The notes under the pieces: generated by a model
Databases searched by the model: none
Seen by the model: only the letters and a program-made list of their open reading frames with translations
What the model was told of the DNA's origin: nothing
Source of the DNA: Acidobacteriota bacterium
Lineage (GTDB): Bacteria; Acidobacteriota; JAAYUB01
Length of the DNA: 62,253 nucleotides
Assembly (NCBI GenBank): GCA_012517875.1
Contig: JAAYUB010000139.1
Coordinates: forward strand, 1 to 62,253
Reading direction: 5' to 3'
Translations under genes and position numbers: made by a program
Shown: positions 49,773 through 58,431 of the stretch, in pieces
Layout of the letters: the number at the start of each line of letters is the position of its first letter
Numbering within the stretch: position 1 is the first letter of the stretch

Positions 49773-51218
49773 TTAGTTTTTCCGTCGTCGAGAGCGGGAG
49801 TTGGGCAGATCCATCTCCTCGCGGTACTTGGCCACGGTCCGGCGCTTGATCTCGATGCCGTCCCGGTTGAGGATGTCGGTCAGATCGTTGTCGGACAGCG
49901 GCCGGTCGGGATTCTCTTTCCCGATGAGATCCCGGATTTTCTCCTTCAGGATGTGGACCGAGATGTCGTCGCCTGCGTCCGTTTTGAAACCCAGGGTGAA
50001 GAACTGGCGAAGTTCCAGAATGCCCTGGGGGCAGTGCACCCACTTGTTGGTCACGGCACGGCTGACGGTGGACGTATGCAGCCCCAGCTGCTCAGCGACG
50101 TCCTTAAGCAGCATCGGCCGGAGATGGGCGATGCCGTTGTCGAGAAAAGCGCGCTGCCGCTCGATGATGATCTCGCAGACGCGGTAAATGGTGCGCCGGC
50201 GGTGGTCCAAGTTGCGGATGAGCTCGATGGCGCTGCGAAATTTATCCCGGATGAACCGTTTGTCCTCGCGGTTGGCCTGCCCGCCTTCGAGGATGCGGCG
50301 GTAGTAGGCATTGATGTGCAGGCGGGGCAGGCCGTCCTCGTTGAGAGTGATCACGTAGTTGCTGCCCACCTTGAGGATATAGACATCCGGCTGGATGTAG
50401 ATGGTGTTGTCCGGCTGGTGCTGCAGACCGGGCTTGGGATTGAGATGGCGGATGCGCGCCACCGCCGCCTCCACATCAGCCGGCGGGCAGCCTTCGAGTT
50501 CGGCGATCCGGTCCAGCTGGCCGGCTTCCACGAGATCGGCGTGGCGCTCCAACACCCGGTAAGCCAGGGTGTCGGATTCCTCCCAGTAGCGCAGCTGGAT
50601 GAGGAGGCATTCCCGCAGGTCCCGGGCGCCGACGCCCGGCGGATCGAAGCCCTGGACCAGGGTCAAGGCATCGGCGGCGTCGGCCGCCCCGACCGCGGCC
50701 GCGGCGGCGATCTCATCCAGGCCCACCTGCAGGTAGCCGTCCTCCGCCAGGTTGCCGATGATCTCCCGCGCCGCCCGCTCCACTTCCGGCCGCGTCTCGA
50801 CCAGGTTCAGCTGCCAGTTCAGGTGCTCGTAGAACGAGACCGGGCGCACGGCGAATGTGTCGTACTCCGGCCGCTCGTAATGCTCGTACTCCGCGGTTTT
50901 GAAGCCGGGCGACAGGTACTCCTGGAAGTAGCTGTCCATCTCGACGTCGTCGAACGAGTCGCGGCCCGGTTCTTCGGTTTCCGCCGCGTCAGCGGCCGCA
51001 GCCGTCGGTGGTCCGTCCGCAAGGGGCCTCTCCGCAGCGTCTTCGGCCGTCTCGTCCAGAAACGGGTTTTCCAGCAGCTCGTTCTTGATGAATTCGCTGA
51101 GCTCCAGATGCGGCAGGGTGACCAGCTCGATCTTCTGGAGCAGGGCCGGGGTGAGGGTCAGCTTCTGAATGGGGGCGATCCGCAGGCTCTGGCGGAGATA
51201 GGGATTCTTATTCACCAT
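49773..51218 (-). CDS. rpoN: RNA polymerase sigma-54 factor
   Basis: A 481-residue alternative sigma factor that needs an AAA+ activator. Region I is Gln/Leu-rich (QKLTLTPALLQKIELVTLPH). The acidic region II spans about residues 50-100. The core-binding region has LLIQLRYWEESDTLAYRVL-type blocks. The DNA-binding end carries LGLHTSTVSRAVTNKW and the RpoN box in RRTVAKYREEMDLPNS. It is complete. No enhancer-binding activator is in the window. It lies between lptB and hpf and has its own extended -10 promoter. Confidence 0.97.
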   Translation of the reverse strand: MVNKNPYLRQSLRIAPIQKLTLTPALLQKIELVTLPHLELSEFIKNELLENPFLDETAEDAAERPLADGPPTAAAADAAETEEPGRDSFDDVEMDSYFQEYLSPGFKTAEYEHYERPEYDTFAVRPVSFYEHLNWQLNLVETRPEVERAAREIIGNLAEDGYLQVGLDEIAAAAAVGAADAADALTLVQGFDPPGVGARDLRECLLIQLRYWEESDTLAYRVLERHADLVEAGQLDRIAELEGCPPADVEAAVARIRHLNPKPGLQHQPDNTIYIQPDVYILKVGSNYVITLNEDGLPRLHINAYYRRILEGGQANREDKRFIRDKFRSAIELIRNLDHRRRTIYRVCEIIIERQRAFLDNGIAHLRPMLLKDVAEQLGLHTSTVSRAVTNKWVHCPQGILELRQFFTLGFKTDAGDDISVHILKEKIRDLIGKENPDRPLSDNDLTDILNRDGIEIKRRTVAKYREEMDLPNSRSRRRKN

Positions 51219-51246
51219 GCGTTCGTTAAACCGTCACTCTGGGCCC

Positions 51247-51255
51247 ATTATACCA
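51247..51255 (-). promoter_or_regulatory. Extended -10 promoter before rpoN
   Basis: The minus strand reads TGGTATAAT, a perfect extended -10, in the 69-bp gap between lptB and rpoN. It may allow rpoN and the PTS genes to be expressed apart from the lpt genes. Confidence 0.6.
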
Positions 51256-51287
51256 GATCTGCGGGCGGGCGGGGAACCACGCCGGCG

Positions 51288-52013
51288 TCAGAGCAACTGG
51301 AAGTGTTCGCCGAGGTAGACGCGGCGAACTTCCTCGTCCGCCGCCAGCTCTTGCGGCGTGCCGTTCCGGAAAATTCGGCCTTCGTGGATGATATAGGCGC
51401 GGTCGGTGATCCGGAGCGTTTCACGGACGTTGTGATCGGTGATCACGACACCGATGCCCCGGGACTTGAGATGCACGATCAGCTTCTGAATGTCGATGAC
51501 GGCCAGCGGATCGATGCCGGCGAATGGCTCGTCCAGGAGGATGAACGACGGTTTCAGCAGCAGGCAGCGGGCGATCTCCACGCGGCGGCGCTCGCCGCCC
51601 GAGAGGGTGTACGCCTTGTTCTTGCGCAGGTGGGCGATGCCGAACTCCTGCAGCAGATCGTTGGCGAGCTTCTCTTCCTGGCTGGCGGTGAGATTGAGGG
51701 TTTCGGCGATGGCCAGGAGATTCTCTTCGACGGTCAGCTTGCGGAAAACGGACGGCTCCTGGGGCAGGTAGCTGATCCCCTTCTGGGCCCGCAGGTACAT
51801 GGGCATGTGTAGGATGTCTTCGTCGTTGTAGAACACCCGCCCGGCGTCGGGATGGGTGAGGCCGACGACAATATAGAACGTGGTGGTTTTACCCGCGCCG
51901 TTCGGTCCCAGCAATCCGACGATCTCGCGGTCGTTGATCGCCAGGTCGATGCCCTTGAGTACCTGGCGGCCACGGTACGACTTGGTGATCTGTTCGGTTC
52001 GGAGTTGGGGCAT
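51288..52013 (-). CDS. lptB: LPS export ABC transporter ATP-binding protein LptB
   Basis: A 241-residue ATPase that powers LPS extraction by LptFG. Walker [21 protein letters not shown], signature [17 protein letters not shown], Walker [17 protein letters not shown] and the H-loop [12 protein letters not shown] are all present. The [20 protein letters not shown] block is typical of LptB. It lies 12 bp after the lptC/lptA-like gene. Confidence 0.97.
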
Positions 52014-52025
52014 GCTGTTAAATTC

Positions 52026-54461
52026 TTATTTTTTAATGGTTTGCGAACTGGAATCCACGCGGATTTTATCATCCCCCCGGTGGAATGTCAATTGCGTCCC
52101 CCGGGTGGTGCGGCCTTCGACCCGGTCCACCACGACGGCCGGAGCACCGCTGAGCACGAACAGTCCGGCGGCCAGATCCAGTCGCAGCTGGTCGCCGGCG
52201 GCATCCCGGGCGGCCTGGTTGAGCCGCACGTGGCCGCGGGCGATCAGCTCGGACAGGCCGCCGCCCTCGCGGAACAGGCCGTCCAAGGTGTCGGCGCTCA
52301 TCACGCCCTGGTCGGTTCGGGTCCTGACCTGGTCTTCGAAGCGGATCTCGCGGCGCTCGGGGTCGTACTGCATCCGCTCGGAGGTGATCTCGAACCGCTG
52401 CTCCTTTCCCTGGCCGTCCCGGGTGAAGAAAATCCCCCGGACCTTGTCTTTGGCGCTGAAACGGCCCCCGCGCTGCTCCAGCTCGAATTGGCCGGCCGTC
52501 AGGATGTTTCGGCCCTGGACCATCCGGCAGGGGCCCCGGTAGACCAGGCGCCCGGCCGCCTCATCGCCTTCCAGCCCGCTGGCGTGGAGGTAGACCGGCT
52601 CCCGTTTCCCCTCACCGTTGCTCATGGCCGACAGGTCGAACTTGGCACCGGGCTGGCCCGGCATGATCGTGGTCTGCACGGGTCCCTGACCGGCCAGCGT
52701 CCGGCGCCGGACGTCATAGACGAAAATCTCAGCGCGAGTGACGGCGCCGCCGGTTTCAAACCGCGGCTCTCCCTTGAGCCGGAGCAGATCGTCCTTGAGG
52801 TTGGCTTCGGCCGCCCGCACCTGCTGCTCGGGGTCCTTGTAGGTCACGCCACCCTTCAGGACCATCGTGTCGATTCGGTTGCGCTCCTTGGGCCGGAGCG
52901 ATCCGGCCAACGATCGACCGGTGGCCTCGCTCCATCGGCCGCCCGCCGCCGTCCGGTGCAACCGGACAGCGCCGTCGGCTTCGAACGCCGAGGCGTCGGC
53001 GCTGCCGGGGAAGAAATCCACCCGGAAGCGGTCGGCTTGAATGGTCGTCGTTTCGTTCGACGCCGGGCGGTGGAGCTGGCAGTCGCCGTGGCCCCGTCCC
53101 TCCGCCTGCGCCGGGAATCGGCCCTCGGCATCGTACTGCACCAAAAGTTCGTCCGCGGTCGCCTGATATGCATCACCACCGGCGGTGGTAGCGGTCACCC
53201 GGCCGCGGTCAAGAACTGTGATCCGGCCGACGGCGGGAGCGGACGTTCCGGTTTGGAATGCGATCCGGATCCGGCCGCCCGACAGGCGGTTGACACGCCG
53301 CTCGACCTGCTGGCTGATCGATGCCTCGCCGTCCAGCTGCAGGGTTTCCGGCTGCAAGTCGGGGCCGATCGCCAGCCGGAGGCTCTGACTCGTCATCTCC
53401 TGGCCGGTCCGTGCGGCGGTGAACCGGCAACCACCCGTCGCCTGCGTGGCGCTGATCCGGCCGGTGGGGTCCGCGTCGATGCGGATTTGCGCCGCCGACA
53501 GCTCGTCGCCGTTCATCCGCAGCCGTGCGTGGCCGTCGGCGTTCACCGATTCCAGTCGGTCGTTGGCGGGAGTGAGCCGGAAAACGACGGTGTCGCCGGC
53601 CAGTTCCATCTCGCCGGCCGTGTCGCGGCGGGAGAACACCGCTGCACCCGAGGTCACGGTCTCCTGGACGCGGTGCTCCGCGTCGAGTCGGACCAGCATC
53701 TCGGCGCCGGTCAGACGGGAGAGCGCACTGCGCAAGGTTACCCCGTCCTCCAGCCGGATGGTTCGGCCTTCGTCAAGGATCCAGCCCGAACCGGCCGCCA
53801 GATCAAGGTACTTTTCCCGCCCCTCGGGACGGTCCCGCACCTCGTCGGGCAACGTGTATTTCAACTCCAGCGGCTGCGTGAGCCGGAAGGTTCGCTCGCG
53901 CAACGACACCCGGAAGCCTCGCCCCTGTCCGGCGAGCCCCGGGGCCTCGAGCCGGAAGTCCGCCTCGTTCACCACCTGCTCCTGCGCCTTGTTGTAATCG
54001 AGCCGGGAGGTGATGACGGTGTAGCCCTGCGAGTGGAGGCGCACATCCCCCTGGAAGCGGACGTTCTGATCCAACACCGAATAGCGGCACTGTCTGGCTT
54101 CGATACGGTCCTGACGTTTCCCCTGCGGCCCGTGGTAGACGGCGGTGATCCCTTCCAGGTCGTTGATGCCGCCCCGGGTGGCCACGTTCTTCCGGGCGGT
54201 GATGATGAACAGGGGACGTCCGTCGCGTGACTCGACATACCGGATCTCCCGGATGTCGCTGGCGACATCCCGATCCAGCATCGCGGCTCCAGAGCCGGGC
54301 CCGTTGTCGCCGCCGCGTCGGATGAAGAAGAAGAAAGCGACTGCCAGCAGCACGACCGCCGCCATGCCGATGCTGAGTCTCTTGATGTGCCTGAAAAATC
54401 GAGTGATGTCCAGGGCCCCGGTCCTCCGGAGGTGGATCGGACGGGATGATTTTACCACCAT
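52026..54461 (-). CDS. LptC/LptA-like LPS transport fusion protein
   Basis: An 811-residue envelope protein. One N-terminal membrane helix (MAAVVLLAVAFFFFI) anchors a LptC-like region (residues about 60-200: REIRYVESRDGRPLFIITAR, VRFQGDVRLHSQGYTVITSR). Long OstA/LptA-type beta-jellyroll repeats follow, ending in IRFEDQVRTRTDQGVMSADT and LSELIARGHVRLNQ. So both bridge components, normally about 190 residues each, appear in one long chain, which would span much of the periplasm. The start is uncertain: ATG 54461 is preferred (GGGGA 3 nt upstream); ATG 54479 and GTG 54512 are alternatives. It heads the lptB-rpoN-hpf-hprK-PTS operon. LPS binding is family knowledge; the fusion is seen here. Confidence 0.82.
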   Translation of the reverse strand: MVVKSSRPIHLRRTGALDITRFFRHIKRLSIGMAAVVLLAVAFFFFIRRGGDNGPGSGAAMLDRDVASDIREIRYVESRDGRPLFIITARKNVATRGGINDLEGITAVYHGPQGKRQDRIEARQCRYSVLDQNVRFQGDVRLHSQGYTVITSRLDYNKAQEQVVNEADFRLEAPGLAGQGRGFRVSLRERTFRLTQPLELKYTLPDEVRDRPEGREKYLDLAAGSGWILDEGRTIRLEDGVTLRSALSRLTGAEMLVRLDAEHRVQETVTSGAAVFSRRDTAGEMELAGDTVVFRLTPANDRLESVNADGHARLRMNGDELSAAQIRIDADPTGRISATQATGGCRFTAARTGQEMTSQSLRLAIGPDLQPETLQLDGEASISQQVERRVNRLSGGRIRIAFQTGTSAPAVGRITVLDRGRVTATTAGGDAYQATADELLVQYDAEGRFPAQAEGRGHGDCQLHRPASNETTTIQADRFRVDFFPGSADASAFEADGAVRLHRTAAGGRWSEATGRSLAGSLRPKERNRIDTMVLKGGVTYKDPEQQVRAAEANLKDDLLRLKGEPRFETGGAVTRAEIFVYDVRRRTLAGQGPVQTTIMPGQPGAKFDLSAMSNGEGKREPVYLHASGLEGDEAAGRLVYRGPCRMVQGRNILTAGQFELEQRGGRFSAKDKVRGIFFTRDGQGKEQRFEITSERMQYDPERREIRFEDQVRTRTDQGVMSADTLDGLFREGGGLSELIARGHVRLNQAARDAAGDQLRLDLAAGLFVLSGAPAVVVDRVEGRTTRGTQLTFHRGDDKIRVDSSSQTIKK

Positions 54462-54486
54462 TCGTCCCCGACCGCTCATCTGAAAG

Positions 54487-54515
54487 TTGCCATTTGTCGA
54501 CTGCTGTGGCACAAT
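54487..54515 (+). promoter_or_regulatory. Sigma-70 promoter of the GTPase-TPR operon
   Basis: TTGCCA (54487-54492), 17 nt, CACAAT (54510-54515), with TGG before the -10. Transcription would start near 54522, leaving a leader of about 113 nt. Confidence 0.55.
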
Positions 54516-54634: not shown

Positions 54635-56881
54635 ATGGCGCAGATCTCCCACGCCGAAAAGGAAATCAAGCTCAAGATCGTCTATTACGGCCCGGCCCTC
54701 AGCGGCAAGACCACCAACCTGATCTACATCCATCAGGTGCTCTTCCCCAACCAGGCGGTCAAGCTGTTCTCGATCAACACCGGTGATGACCGCACCCTGT
54801 TTTTCGACCTGCTGCCCCTGGAGCTGGGCCGGGTCAACGGTTACGACCTCAAGCTGCAGTTGTTCACCGTGCCCGGCCAGGTCCGCTACAATCAGACGCG
54901 GCGCGCGGTGTTGAGCAAGACCGACGGCGTGGTGTTTGTTGCGGATTCCCAAAAGGGCTTCGAAGACTCCAATCTCGAAAGCTACACCAATCTCAAGGAA
55001 AATCTCGCGCTGAACCACCTTTCGTACGCCAGCATCCCCCTGGTCATTCAGTACAACAAGCAGGACTTGGACGGGATCCACTCCGTCGAGGCCCTGGACC
55101 GTCAGCTCAACGATCGCCGGGTGCCCAGCTTCGGCGCCATCGCTATCACCGGCGTCGGCGTGCTCCAGACGCTGAAACAGTCGATCCTGCAGGTGCTGGG
55201 GCAATTCAGCCGGACATTTCCCGAGTTCCCCGTCTCTGAAATCGAGGACCGGATCGACCGCAGCTTCGAGGCGGTGCTCGACGCCTATCAGCAGGGCAGC
55301 CGCGCCGCGGCGCCGGTGGCCGAACCCGAAACCGCCTTCCGCGAGAAGCTCCAGGCCTCGGCGCACAACATCAAGGTGCGGGAAAGCCGGGATGAGATCT
55401 CTCAGGCCGAGCTGTTGGAGAAGGCCGTCGAGACCAACATCGAAATGGCCGAGCTCTACAACGCCCTGAACACCACGAAGAATCAGCTGGAACAGAAGAG
55501 CCGCGAGCTGACCATCCTGACTCAGGTGACGCAGGCGCTGGTGGAACCGTTCGATCCCGAACAGCTTCCGCGAATGCTGTTCAAGTCGGTGCTGATGACG
55601 TTCCAGACATCATACGGCTCGATCCTGCGGCTCGACCCCGGCAGCGGAAGGTTCCGGGAGTTGTTCATCTCCGGTTTCAGCAAAGACCCCCTGGACAGCC
55701 TCGCCTTGAGCGGCAGCGATTCCCTGGCCCGGCACTTGTTCGAACAACAGAAACCGTATTTTTTCAACGCCTTCTCCTTTGACGCGGACGCGCTGCCGGG
55801 CATGCCGCCGGCAGAGCTTGCCGAACAGCTGAAGAAGCGGCACATCATGGCGTTCATGAGCGTTCCCCTGCGCGCGGCCGATGCCCAGTTCGGCCTGGTG
55901 ACTCTCTACCAGCTCATCAACGAAGCCAGCGTCCTGAAGGCATACGGGGCGGATGAACTCCGATTCCTGAACCGGCTCGGCGCCGTCATCTCCCTGGCCT
56001 TCGAGCGGATGGAGCAGGTCAAGCGGCTGCATGCGGTCGACAGCCAAGCGGACACCCTTATCGCCGAGCGCACCGCCGCGCTCGAGCAACAGGCCCACAC
56101 GCTGTCCGCCCAGAACGCCGACTACCAGAACCGCCTCCACAAGCTGGAAACCCTGCTGGTGCCCCTCGTCCGGATGGACCAAGAGCGCTACCAGCGGGTG
56201 CAGGCTTTCCGGACCGACATCAGCAAACCGCTCTCGTCGGTGCTGACCGCGGGCAAGATCCTGGAAAAATTCGGCGTGACCAGCAAGGACAATTTGGACA
56301 AGTTCCTGGAGGTGCTGCGCGAAGAATCCGCCCGGCTGAACCAGGTGCTGGCGGGATTCGAAGCGGTCACGACCCGCTATTTCCGACCGGCAGATTTCGT
56401 CGAGGGCTCGTTCCCCCTGAGCGAGCTGCTGGCGAGGGTGCGCGAACTCTATCTGCCCGTCATCAAGATGAAGCGGCTGGAGTTCCGGGAGGACATCCCC
56501 GACGAACTGCCCAACGTGCTGGGTGATCGGCACAAACTCCAGTACGTGCTGAACCAGCTCGTGGAGAACGCCCTGCAGTTCACCGCCAGCGGATACTTGG
56601 AAATCCGCGCCCAATTCAATCCCGTCCTCAACGATCGGTTCATGGTGGTATCCGTTGCCGACACCGGCAGCGGGATCAGCCGGGAAAACCTGCCGCGGAT
56701 TTTCGATCGGTTTTTCCGCGAGGCCGGCGATTTCGGCACGCAGCAGGTCAACTTCGGGCTGGGGCTGGCGTTCAGCAAGGAGATCATCGAGCATTACAGC
56801 GGCCGCATCTGGGCCAAGAGTGAAGAAGGGCTCGGCACCACGGTCTACGTGGAGCTGCCGGTCCACCAACGCGGGAGATGA
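54635..56881 (+). CDS. MglA-like GTPase - GAF - histidine-kinase-like ATPase fusion
   Basis: A 748-residue cytoplasmic protein. Residues 1-200 are a MglA-type small GTPase: P-loop YYGPALSGKTTN, DDRTLFFDLLPL with Arg53, TVPGQ (Thr78, Gln82) and NKQD from Asn141. By recall these numbers equal those of Myxococcus MglA, which supports ATG 54635 over GTG 54572. A charged linker leads to a GAF domain (about 292-458) and a coiled coil. The C-terminus is a HATPase_c domain: QLVENALQFT, VADTGSGIS, IFDRFFRE and FGLGLAFSKEIIEHY. In the expected dimerisation/phosphoacceptor helix the segment FRTDISKPLSS has Thr527 where SHELRTPL-type kinases have His, so classical phosphotransfer seems impossible. Coupled by ATGA to the TPR-DUF4388 gene. 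Confidence 0.88.
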   Translation: MAQISHAEKEIKLKIVYYGPALSGKTTNLIYIHQVLFPNQAVKLFSINTGDDRTLFFDLLPLELGRVNGYDLKLQLFTVPGQVRYNQTRRAVLSKTDGVVFVADSQKGFEDSNLESYTNLKENLALNHLSYASIPLVIQYNKQDLDGIHSVEALDRQLNDRRVPSFGAIAITGVGVLQTLKQSILQVLGQFSRTFPEFPVSEIEDRIDRSFEAVLDAYQQGSRAAAPVAEPETAFREKLQASAHNIKVRESRDEISQAELLEKAVETNIEMAELYNALNTTKNQLEQKSRELTILTQVTQALVEPFDPEQLPRMLFKSVLMTFQTSYGSILRLDPGSGRFRELFISGFSKDPLDSLALSGSDSLARHLFEQQKPYFFNAFSFDADALPGMPPAELAEQLKKRHIMAFMSVPLRAADAQFGLVTLYQLINEASVLKAYGADELRFLNRLGAVISLAFERMEQVKRLHAVDSQADTLIAERTAALEQQAHTLSAQNADYQNRLHKLETLLVPLVRMDQERYQRVQAFRTDISKPLSSVLTAGKILEKFGVTSKDNLDKFLEVLREESARLNQVLAGFEAVTTRYFRPADFVEGSFPLSELLARVRELYLPVIKMKRLEFREDIPDELPNVLGDRHKLQYVLNQLVENALQFTASGYLEIRAQFNPVLNDRFMVVSVADTGSGISRENLPRIFDRFFREAGDFGTQQVNFGLGLAFSKEIIEHYSGRIWAKSEEGLGTTVYVELPVHQRGR

Positions 56882-58431
56882 GCATGCTGTTCTACAACAA
56901 GGCGCGCCTGAAGAAATCCGGCGAGAAGCTGGTTGCCCAGGGTCAGCTCGACAAAGCCGTGGCCGTGTTCGACAAAATCTTGGCCAACGAGCCGGAGGAG
57001 ACGGACATCCTGTTCCTGGCCGGCGAGCTCAAGATCCGGCTCAAGCAGCGGGAGTCGGGCCTGGCCCTGCTGCACAAGGCCGCCTCCCTCTACGATCAGG
57101 GCAACGAAACGCAGAAGGCCATCTCAATCTTCAAGAAGTATCTCCAGCACGATCCGGATAACCTGGATATCCTGTCGAAACTGGCGGACCTCCACCTCAA
57201 GGCCGGCCACCCGGGCGAGACTTCGCAGACGCTGCTCCGCGCCGCGGCCGTCGCCAGCGCGAAGGACCCGTCGCAGGCCATTTACTACTACGAGAAGGTG
57301 CTCAAACATGAGCCCGACAATCCGGAGGGCCTGGCATCGCTGGCCGAGCTGTACCTGAAACAGAAGCTCATCCCGAAGGCTGTGGAGTGCAGTTTCCGGG
57401 CCGGCCAGAAGTTTTTCGAGAAGGGGAACTACGCCAAAAGTTACATGCACCTTTACACGGTGATCCAGCACGAGCCGGACAACCTGTCCGCCAACCTGAT
57501 GATCCTCGAGACGCTCATCCGGTTGCAGAGCTACGAGGACGCGCTGGTCCACTGGAACGCGATGAGCCAGGGGGAGAAGGAGACCGATCTGAAGCTGCTG
57601 CAGTACCGCGGCGACATCCTGCTGGAACTCGGCCGGAAGGACGAGCTCAAGAACCTCGTCCACAAGATGAGCTTCATGGTGCCGGACAGCTACACCGTCA
57701 TCTTCCGGTTCGTGGATCGCGCCCTGGGCTCCAAGCGCCACGCGATGGCGGTGGAGCTGCTCGACCTGCTCGATCTCTCCCAGTATCATTCTTTCAGCAG
57801 CAAGATCACCGAGGCGCTCTCCCGGATCTTGGCCGAGGACGAGGACAACGTGGGCGCCCTGCAGAAGATGGCCGAGCTGAAGATCTTCACCGGCGACATT
57901 CAGGGCGTCACCTCGATGTATGCCAAGCTGTATCAGAATTTCCTCAAGAACGAGGATCACCGCCGGGCGTACCAACTGCTGGAGAAATGGCTCAACCTCG
58001 AGGAGAGCAACGACTGGATCCGCCAGGAGATGCGCCGGCTGAAGCTGATCCTGGACGAGAAATCCGACCGCAACCTCGACCTGATGCGGGGCAAGCTCGA
58101 GGAGATCAGCCTGGCCGACCTGATCCAGATGCTGGAATCCGCCCGCAAGACGGGCGTCCTGCAGATCCGCTACACCGACCGGGTGGGCAAGATCTATTTC
58201 AACAAGGGCGCGATGATCCACGCGGCCTACCTGGACTCCATCGGCGCGGATACCATCTACCACCTGCTCAAGCTGCCGGGCGGCGATTTCACCTTCGACC
58301 CCAACCTCCCCGCCGGTCTGGTCACCAGCATCCAGCATTCCAACACCCAGGTGGTGCTGGACGCGCTGCGGGTCATCGACGAGGAAACCCATCGGCTCCG
58401 CGAGTCCGGCGAGGCGTCCGACGCGACCTGA
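56878..58431 (+). CDS. TPR-repeat protein with C-terminal DUF4388 (PATAN) domain
   Basis: A 517-residue cytoplasmic protein. Residues 1 to about 390 are tetratricopeptide-like helical repeats (AVAVFDKILANEPEETDILF, AISIFKKYLQHDPDNLDILS, EKVLKHEPDNPEGLASLAEL) used for protein-protein contacts. Residues about 404-505 form a DUF4388/PATAN domain: GKLEEISLADLIQMLESARK, TGVLQIRY, KIYFNKGAMIHAAY and GGDFTFDP. PATAN domains are output or adaptor modules in bacterial signalling and motility proteins. The first ATG overlaps the stop of the GTPase-kinase-like gene; a second ATG two codons later is also possible. It is a likely partner of that protein. Confidence 0.87.
   Translation: MSMLFYNKARLKKSGEKLVAQGQLDKAVAVFDKILANEPEETDILFLAGELKIRLKQRESGLALLHKAASLYDQGNETQKAISIFKKYLQHDPDNLDILSKLADLHLKAGHPGETSQTLLRAAAVASAKDPSQAIYYYEKVLKHEPDNPEGLASLAELYLKQKLIPKAVECSFRAGQKFFEKGNYAKSYMHLYTVIQHEPDNLSANLMILETLIRLQSYEDALVHWNAMSQGEKETDLKLLQYRGDILLELGRKDELKNLVHKMSFMVPDSYTVIFRFVDRALGSKRHAMAVELLDLLDLSQYHSFSSKITEALSRILAEDEDNVGALQKMAELKIFTGDIQGVTSMYAKLYQNFLKNEDHRRAYQLLEKWLNLEESNDWIRQEMRRLKLILDEKSDRNLDLMRGKLEEISLADLIQMLESARKTGVLQIRYTDRVGKIYFNKGAMIHAAYLDSIGADTIYHLLKLPGGDFTFDPNLPAGLVTSIQHSNTQVVLDALRVIDEETHRLRESGEASDAT

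Follow-up and report, generated by a model that had tools for sequence, protein, structure and literature searches.

An MglA GTPase fused to a kinase module without its phosphoacceptor histidine, and its TPR-DUF4388 neighbour, in Acidobacteriota

The 62,253-nucleotide stretch analysed here (the window; positions 1 to 62,253 of contig JAAYUB010000139.1, assembly GCA_012517875.1) belongs to a 4.0-Mb Acidobacteriota genome. It contains two same-strand genes, one encoding an MglA-type GTPase fused to a kinase module that lacks the phosphoacceptor His, and the other a protein built of TPRs and a DUF4388 domain, designated P0002 (Table 1). Both frames are open throughout, and the stop of the fusion gene and the start of P0002 share the letters ATGA at 56878-56881, confirming the pair and overlap reported in a preliminary description made from the sequence alone. 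An alternative P0002 start Met at 56884 agrees with the start of one orthologue (G003). With long opposite-strand open frames on both sides, the pair appears to form a two-gene operon on its own. Among the matches listed, the nearest record with a name is a metagenome-assembled genome of the same genus, Go_SlDig_bin_198 (JAGOHA010000019.1).

A phmmer search matched residues 2-189 of the fusion to Myxococcus xanthus MglA with an expectation value (E) of 5e-50. All diagnostic residues are present (G19, GKTT 24-27, R53, T78, G81, Q82, N141, K142, and D144), as expected from the initial assignment of a complete MglA-type GTPase, while the Roc model PF08477 gave no match to this domain. The GTPase fold, P-loop, R53, T78, Q82, TVPGQ, and NKxD are shared with the Group 1 MglA proteins of M. 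xanthus and Thermus, and the window protein is 38-49% identical to solved structures. Unlike these single-domain small GTPases, it forms part of a 748-residue GAF-pseudokinase fusion without an adjacent mglB. No MglB (roadblock) gene occurs anywhere in the window, as had been noted. The genome nonetheless retains a separate, canonical mglB-mglA pair elsewhere (G000:C134:12391-13446), in which MglB adjoins a stand-alone MglA.

The kinase half was identified by Pfam matches to GAF_3 (E 7.7e-7) and HATPase_c (E 3.7e-23), and alignment confirmed that the N, G1, F, and G2 boxes are intact. Pfam HisKA was not detected in the protein. Alignment to His-bearing relatives placed Thr527 at the phospho-His, in support of the position first proposed, with H-E-x-x-T-P-L replaced by T-D-I-S-K-P-L. 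For example, SHEMKTPL or SHELRTPL of the relatives corresponds to RTDISKPL in the window protein. The acid at +1 is retained (Asp528), and the +4 phosphatase Thr/Asn is replaced by Lys531. We searched for a replacement and found no other conserved His in the DHp helices of the six-genome clade alignment; H466, H488, and H502 vary across the clade and were rejected as alternative phosphoacceptors. The sole invariant His of this His-less clade is His244, within an HNIxV motif of the linker behind MglA; it is recorded here and is not a favoured candidate.

An AlphaFold2 model of the fusion (14 sequences; mean predicted local distance difference test score, pLDDT, of 74) comprised the MglA fold, the GAF domain, a long helix (439-546) bearing Thr527, a hairpin helix (551-581), and a GHKL domain, with modest confidence in the DHp region (55-70). 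Foldseek matched the model to MglA bound to GTPgammaS (6izw; template modelling score, TM, on target of 0.91), an ATP-bound histidine kinase (4u7o; 0.81), and DivL (4q20; 0.68). Of the features that mark a HisKA kinase, the window protein has the HATPase boxes and lacks both the phosphoacceptor His and an adjacent response regulator.

Table 1. Features of the fusion gene and P0002 (positions in the window; aa, amino acids; CDS, coding sequence).
Feature	Position	Strand	Basis or remark
CDS, MglA GTPase - linker - GAF - coiled coil/DHp - HATPase, pseudo-histidine kinase, 748 aa	54635..56881	+	orthologues begin at same Met
MglA (Group 1-like) GTPase domain, aa 1-190	54635..55204	+	homology and Foldseek
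Linker, aa 191-274; conservation limited to the order	55205..55456	+	alignment
His244 codon within linker, HNIxV motif	55364-55366	+	alignment
GAF domain, aa 308-458	55556..56008	+	GAF_3 exceeds gathering score
DHp-like helical hairpin, aa 509-600 (model helices to 546 and 551-581)	56159..56434	+	model (pLDDT about 55-70) and alignment
Thr527 codon, phosphoacceptor His position	56213..56215	+	alignment
HATPase_c, aa 630-744, N/G1/F/G2 boxes intact	56522..56866	+	Pfam and alignment
CDS, P0002, TPR array and DUF4388, 517 aa	56878..58431	+	ATGA overlap with upstream stop
P0002 TPR superhelix, aa 3-385	56884..58032	+	colinear with N-terminus of same genome's 1,064-aa SgmX-like TPR protein
P0002 DUF4388 (PATAN-type, short form), aa 404-503	58087..58386	+	Pfam

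P0002 gave Pfam matches to TPR (E 3.7e-33) and to DUF4388 (PF14332; E 1.3e-21, 77.3 bits against a gathering score of 25). The latter covers 100 residues on a profile of about 122 positions. The TPR and DUF4388 assignments of the preliminary description stand, but its PATAN label needs qualifying, since this DUF4388 is a short form and probably has no PATAN-type helical insertion. PATAN/DUF4388 proteins such as PatA and PixE share with P0002 a domain that exceeds the Pfam cut-off, and differ in that P0002 has the short form and carries TPRs rather than a receiver domain. In the structural model of P0002, the TPR superhelix was good and the DUF4388 region fell below a pLDDT of 50, too low to reveal such an insertion.

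Residues 3-382 of P0002 are colinear with residues 1-381 of a 1,064-residue TPR protein of the same genome (L233:2879-6073), with 3 gaps, 25% identity, and E 5e-26. The best NCBIfam match of that protein is SgmX (E 1.3e-41), far below the curated cut-off. Similar TPR frames of 800-1,200 residues were seen in most Acidobacteriota searched. P0002 itself matched NCBIfam SgmX from residues 8-204 (profile 3-200; E 8.6e-12), with 44 bits against a cut-off of 1800. In M. xanthus, SgmX is a TPR protein that acts as an effector of MglA-GTP, which it binds through its last three TPRs, and promotes the formation of pili (PMC7519303, PMC7668184), while its N-terminal TPRs activate type IV pili (PMC11580455). 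P0002 resembles SgmX in having a long TPR array that is tied to MglA and aligns with the SgmX-like N-terminus. In contrast, the C-terminal MglA-binding TPRs are absent from P0002, with DUF4388 in their place. In cyanobacteria, PATAN-type proteins are believed to target PilB, the motor of pilus extension (PMC7690835), and PATAN genes are known near mglA and mglB (PMC4316618). Motor ATPases of the pilus type are encoded in the window's genome; judged by open-frame length, two are long and PilB-like and four are PilT-like, and some could belong to type II secretion.

Identity between the fusion and its orthologues is 96-97% in two other species of the genus, falls to 56% in a different genus of the same family, and is 44-46% in a different family of the order. 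Every orthologue is full length and lacks the His: across the six genomes, which form a 100/100 clade, the residue at position 527 is T, T, T, S, E, and E (Ser in G003). The ratio of nonsynonymous to synonymous substitution rates (dN/dS) within the genus was 0.07-0.09 at this 96-97% identity. Values for DHp (0.04-0.08) and HATPase (0.04-0.06) were low and near that of the MglA domain (0.03-0.04), indicating that the kinase half is maintained and ruling out a decaying pseudogene. The nucleotide boxes are intact in the window's family (f1). In its sister family (f2), Glu occupies the phosphoacceptor position, the H box is eroded (EEGEKEI), and the G2 box is eroded as well (GISL).

The preliminary description allowed that sequence relatives of this architecture may exist. 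The architecture is indeed not isolated: such fusions are spread widely through Acidobacteriota, and most of them are canonical. In a profile search over 396 genomes of the phylum, full-length fusions numbered about 45 and came from about 13 families. Combined with the listed matches of a genome-contig scan, this search provided 57 distinct fusions for alignment, so the total is at least 57. The GTPase residues (R53, T78, Q82, and NKxD included) were kept in all 57. The His was kept in 39 of 56 scorable fusions and absent in 17. Among the matches listed in the genome-contig scan, the fusion appeared restricted to Acidobacteriota, and the viral contigs searched held no relative of it.

On a tree built without the H-box columns, the His state required five changes. 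The His-less groups are the window's order, a Thermoanaerobaculia-like lineage (A, A, N, D, S), family f67 (Q), one f31 paralogue (G), and some Holophagaceae (N). Although the number of changes alone cannot separate gain from loss, loss is the sensible direction given that the state in common is the canonical HisKA motif. The sister group of the window clade (100/100) is joined to it at 95/90 and contains the canonical His-bearing family f76 and a second His-less lineage, f44. These comparisons point to descent of the window protein from a canonical, His-bearing fusion ancestor.

Other variants of the fusion were also observed. Related MglA fusions of Holophagaceae/Geothrix (L131, L141, L110, L114, L115, L106, L112, L107, and L105) have a degenerate HATPase (G1/G2). 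The culturable Geothrix fermentans carries a fusion with such a HATPase. A hybrid form from Holophagae (L080:1365-3731) combines a degenerate HATPase with PAS in place of GAF and a C-terminal receiver. Two further Acidobacteriota proteins (L085:7526-8767 and L078:9413-10786) are MglA-PAS and MglA-GAF proteins with no kinase domain, so the joining of MglA to sensors is a more general feature.

Gene neighbourhoods differed with the state of the His. A same-strand response-regulator gene adjoins 26 of 39 His-bearing fusions, compared with none of 16 scorable His-less fusions. Only five independent contrasts were available, of which one or two shifted the receiver in the same direction as the His and none in the opposite direction. 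The association runs in one direction and is suggestive, but falls short of significance when phylogeny is taken into account. Within the window's order, the TPR-DUF4388 gene follows the fusion in G001, G002, G003, and G005, the full set of four relatives whose contig continues (that of G004 ends). Full-length P0002 orthologues were confined to these among 40 relatives searched. Members of the f44 lineage (L219, L097, L221, and L098) have another DUF4388 gene, distinct from that of P0002, near the fusion on the opposite strand. One of these fusions, L098, has the His, no receiver, and a DUF4388 gene nearby; this apparent intermediate may show the order of events. In f15 (L073, L208) and f67 (L100, L217), a gene named by eye as mqnA-like (menaquinone pathway) lies downstream of the fusion and receiver genes are absent; the f15 fusions have the His and those of f67 have Gln.

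Two known systems offer precedents. DivL of Caulobacter is a His-less kinase that signals by conformation (PMC4211667). Like the fusion, it has the His replaced and the histidine kinase fold and boxes retained, and it signals without kinase activity. It differs in having PAS sensors, no GTPase, and Tyr rather than Thr, and in sensing DivK~P. Actinobacterial conservons (CvnA kinase, CvnB, CvnC, and CvnD GTPase) link a kinase with a GTPase of the MglA family and need no response regulator to do so (PMC4316618, PMC13343842). However, these are separate proteins of a four-gene cvnABCD operon that includes the roadblock MglB homologue CvnB, and CvnA8 autophosphorylates on H183, whereas the window has a two-gene operon, no roadblock gene, and a single polypeptide without the His. 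The main survey of prokaryotic Ras-like GTPases focused on single-domain proteins (PMC4316618). As with the preliminary description, which knew of no such system, we found no publication describing MglA-kinase fusions within a partial coverage of the literature, a negative that amounts to absence of evidence.

The reasonable reading of these data is signalling that bypasses His phosphotransfer, given the absence of the His in six genomes, purifying selection, ATP boxes kept in f1, the lack of adjacent receivers, and the conserved TPR-DUF4388 neighbour. We propose that a sensor kinase turned pseudokinase regulates its own cis-MglA, with the TPR-DUF4388 protein as effector toward type IV pili, and we hold this proposal with about even confidence. 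The ancestor would have been an MglA-sensor-kinase fusion that became a pseudokinase in this order upon loss of the phosphoacceptor His and the phosphatase residue. The GAF domain and a nucleotide-binding pseudokinase dimer would sense an internal signal, and a change in helix register would control the nucleotide state of the N-terminal MglA or the access of effectors to it. MglA-GTP would then act on P0002, a TPR protein like the N-terminus of SgmX with DUF4388 standing where the MglA-binding C-terminal TPRs would be. P0002 in turn would steer a polar machine, most likely the type IV pilus motors. The output would be MglA rather than a response regulator. The preliminary description had likewise proposed a switch acting through the TPR-PATAN partner and not by phosphotransfer, but it cast the protein as a GTP-gated ATPase. 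Control of the GTPase by the kinase arm is likelier, because none of the 57 fusions departs from the GTPase residues while the His, the H box, and even the G2 box drift.

Several points weigh against this proposal. Homology gives no support for binding of MglA by P0002, because the similarity of P0002 to SgmX spans the pilus-activating half and does not include the repeats that bind MglA. The DUF4388 of P0002 is a short form, probably without the helical insertion characteristic of classical PATAN domains, and no pilus gene adjoins the locus. The association between His and response regulators amounts to five independent pairs, short of significance. Binding of ATP and GTP, a GAF ligand, and contact between MglA and the TPRs are all features that we infer from sequence.

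The same evidence bears on other readings of the locus. The His-less kinase might dock a phosphorylated response regulator encoded elsewhere and report to its cis-MglA, with the signal running from receiver to pseudokinase to GTPase. This DivL-like role is unlikely in our judgement, as no receiver gene lies near the His-less fusions and f2 has an eroded H box, which forms part of the surface that docks receivers. It draws on the resemblance of the window model to DivL, which itself keeps the kinase boxes without the His and reads DivK~P (PMC4211667), on the receivers adjoining most His-bearing relatives, and on the regulation of M. xanthus MglA by the receiver protein RomR, with RomX (PMC7519303). 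Alternatively, the kinase half might only dimerise or tether, with ATP binding vestigial and MglA working like a stand-alone MglA held always as a dimer. DHp and coiled coil are indeed dimerising folds and the G2 box is eroded in f2, yet f1 retains both the nucleotide-site residues and low dN/dS, which makes such a scaffold rather doubtful. It is more improbable that the module remains catalytic and uses the +1 acid to phosphorylate Thr527 (Ser in G003) or another protein. The Thr/Ser and Asp/Glu retained in f1, together with intact N, G1, F, and G2 boxes, would suit such an altered kinase, but f2 has Glu at this position and a degraded G2 box, and other His-less lineages carry Q, A, N, D, S, or G. 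To the best of our knowledge, a DHp Thr kinase of this fold is without precedent. Finally, we give virtually no credence to an assembly chimera or a recent functionless gene fusion, for which nothing was found in favour. An assembly fusion, raised as a caveat in the preliminary description, was refuted by full-length orthologues in three genera of the order, assembled independently, and fusions occur in about 13 families of the phylum; identity and dN/dS within the genus likewise oppose a functionless fusion.

Extending the pseudokinase proposal to the phylum is more tentative, and we would sooner question than assert it. Across Acidobacteriota, a Ras-like GTPase may have repeatedly replaced the response regulator as kinase output. 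The fused kinase, having lost its His in several lineages, would keep an allosteric, nucleotide-dependent grip on the GTPase and hand over to TPR/DUF4388 pilus effectors. Small-GTPase and two-component signalling are usually studied apart, as modules connected through RomR or similar adaptors, or placed next to each other as in conservons. A one-polypeptide family across a phylum, with canonical and His-less members and the apparent intermediate L098, makes it testable how a kinase could drive a GTPase without phosphotransfer, and how pseudokinases arise. For DUF4388, the proposed role would be that of a regulatory head on an SgmX-like pilus activator.

Upstream of the gene pair, the opposite-strand genes at 49773-54512 (-) were identified by eye as RpoN, LptB, and LptA/LptC-like, an ordinary cluster.

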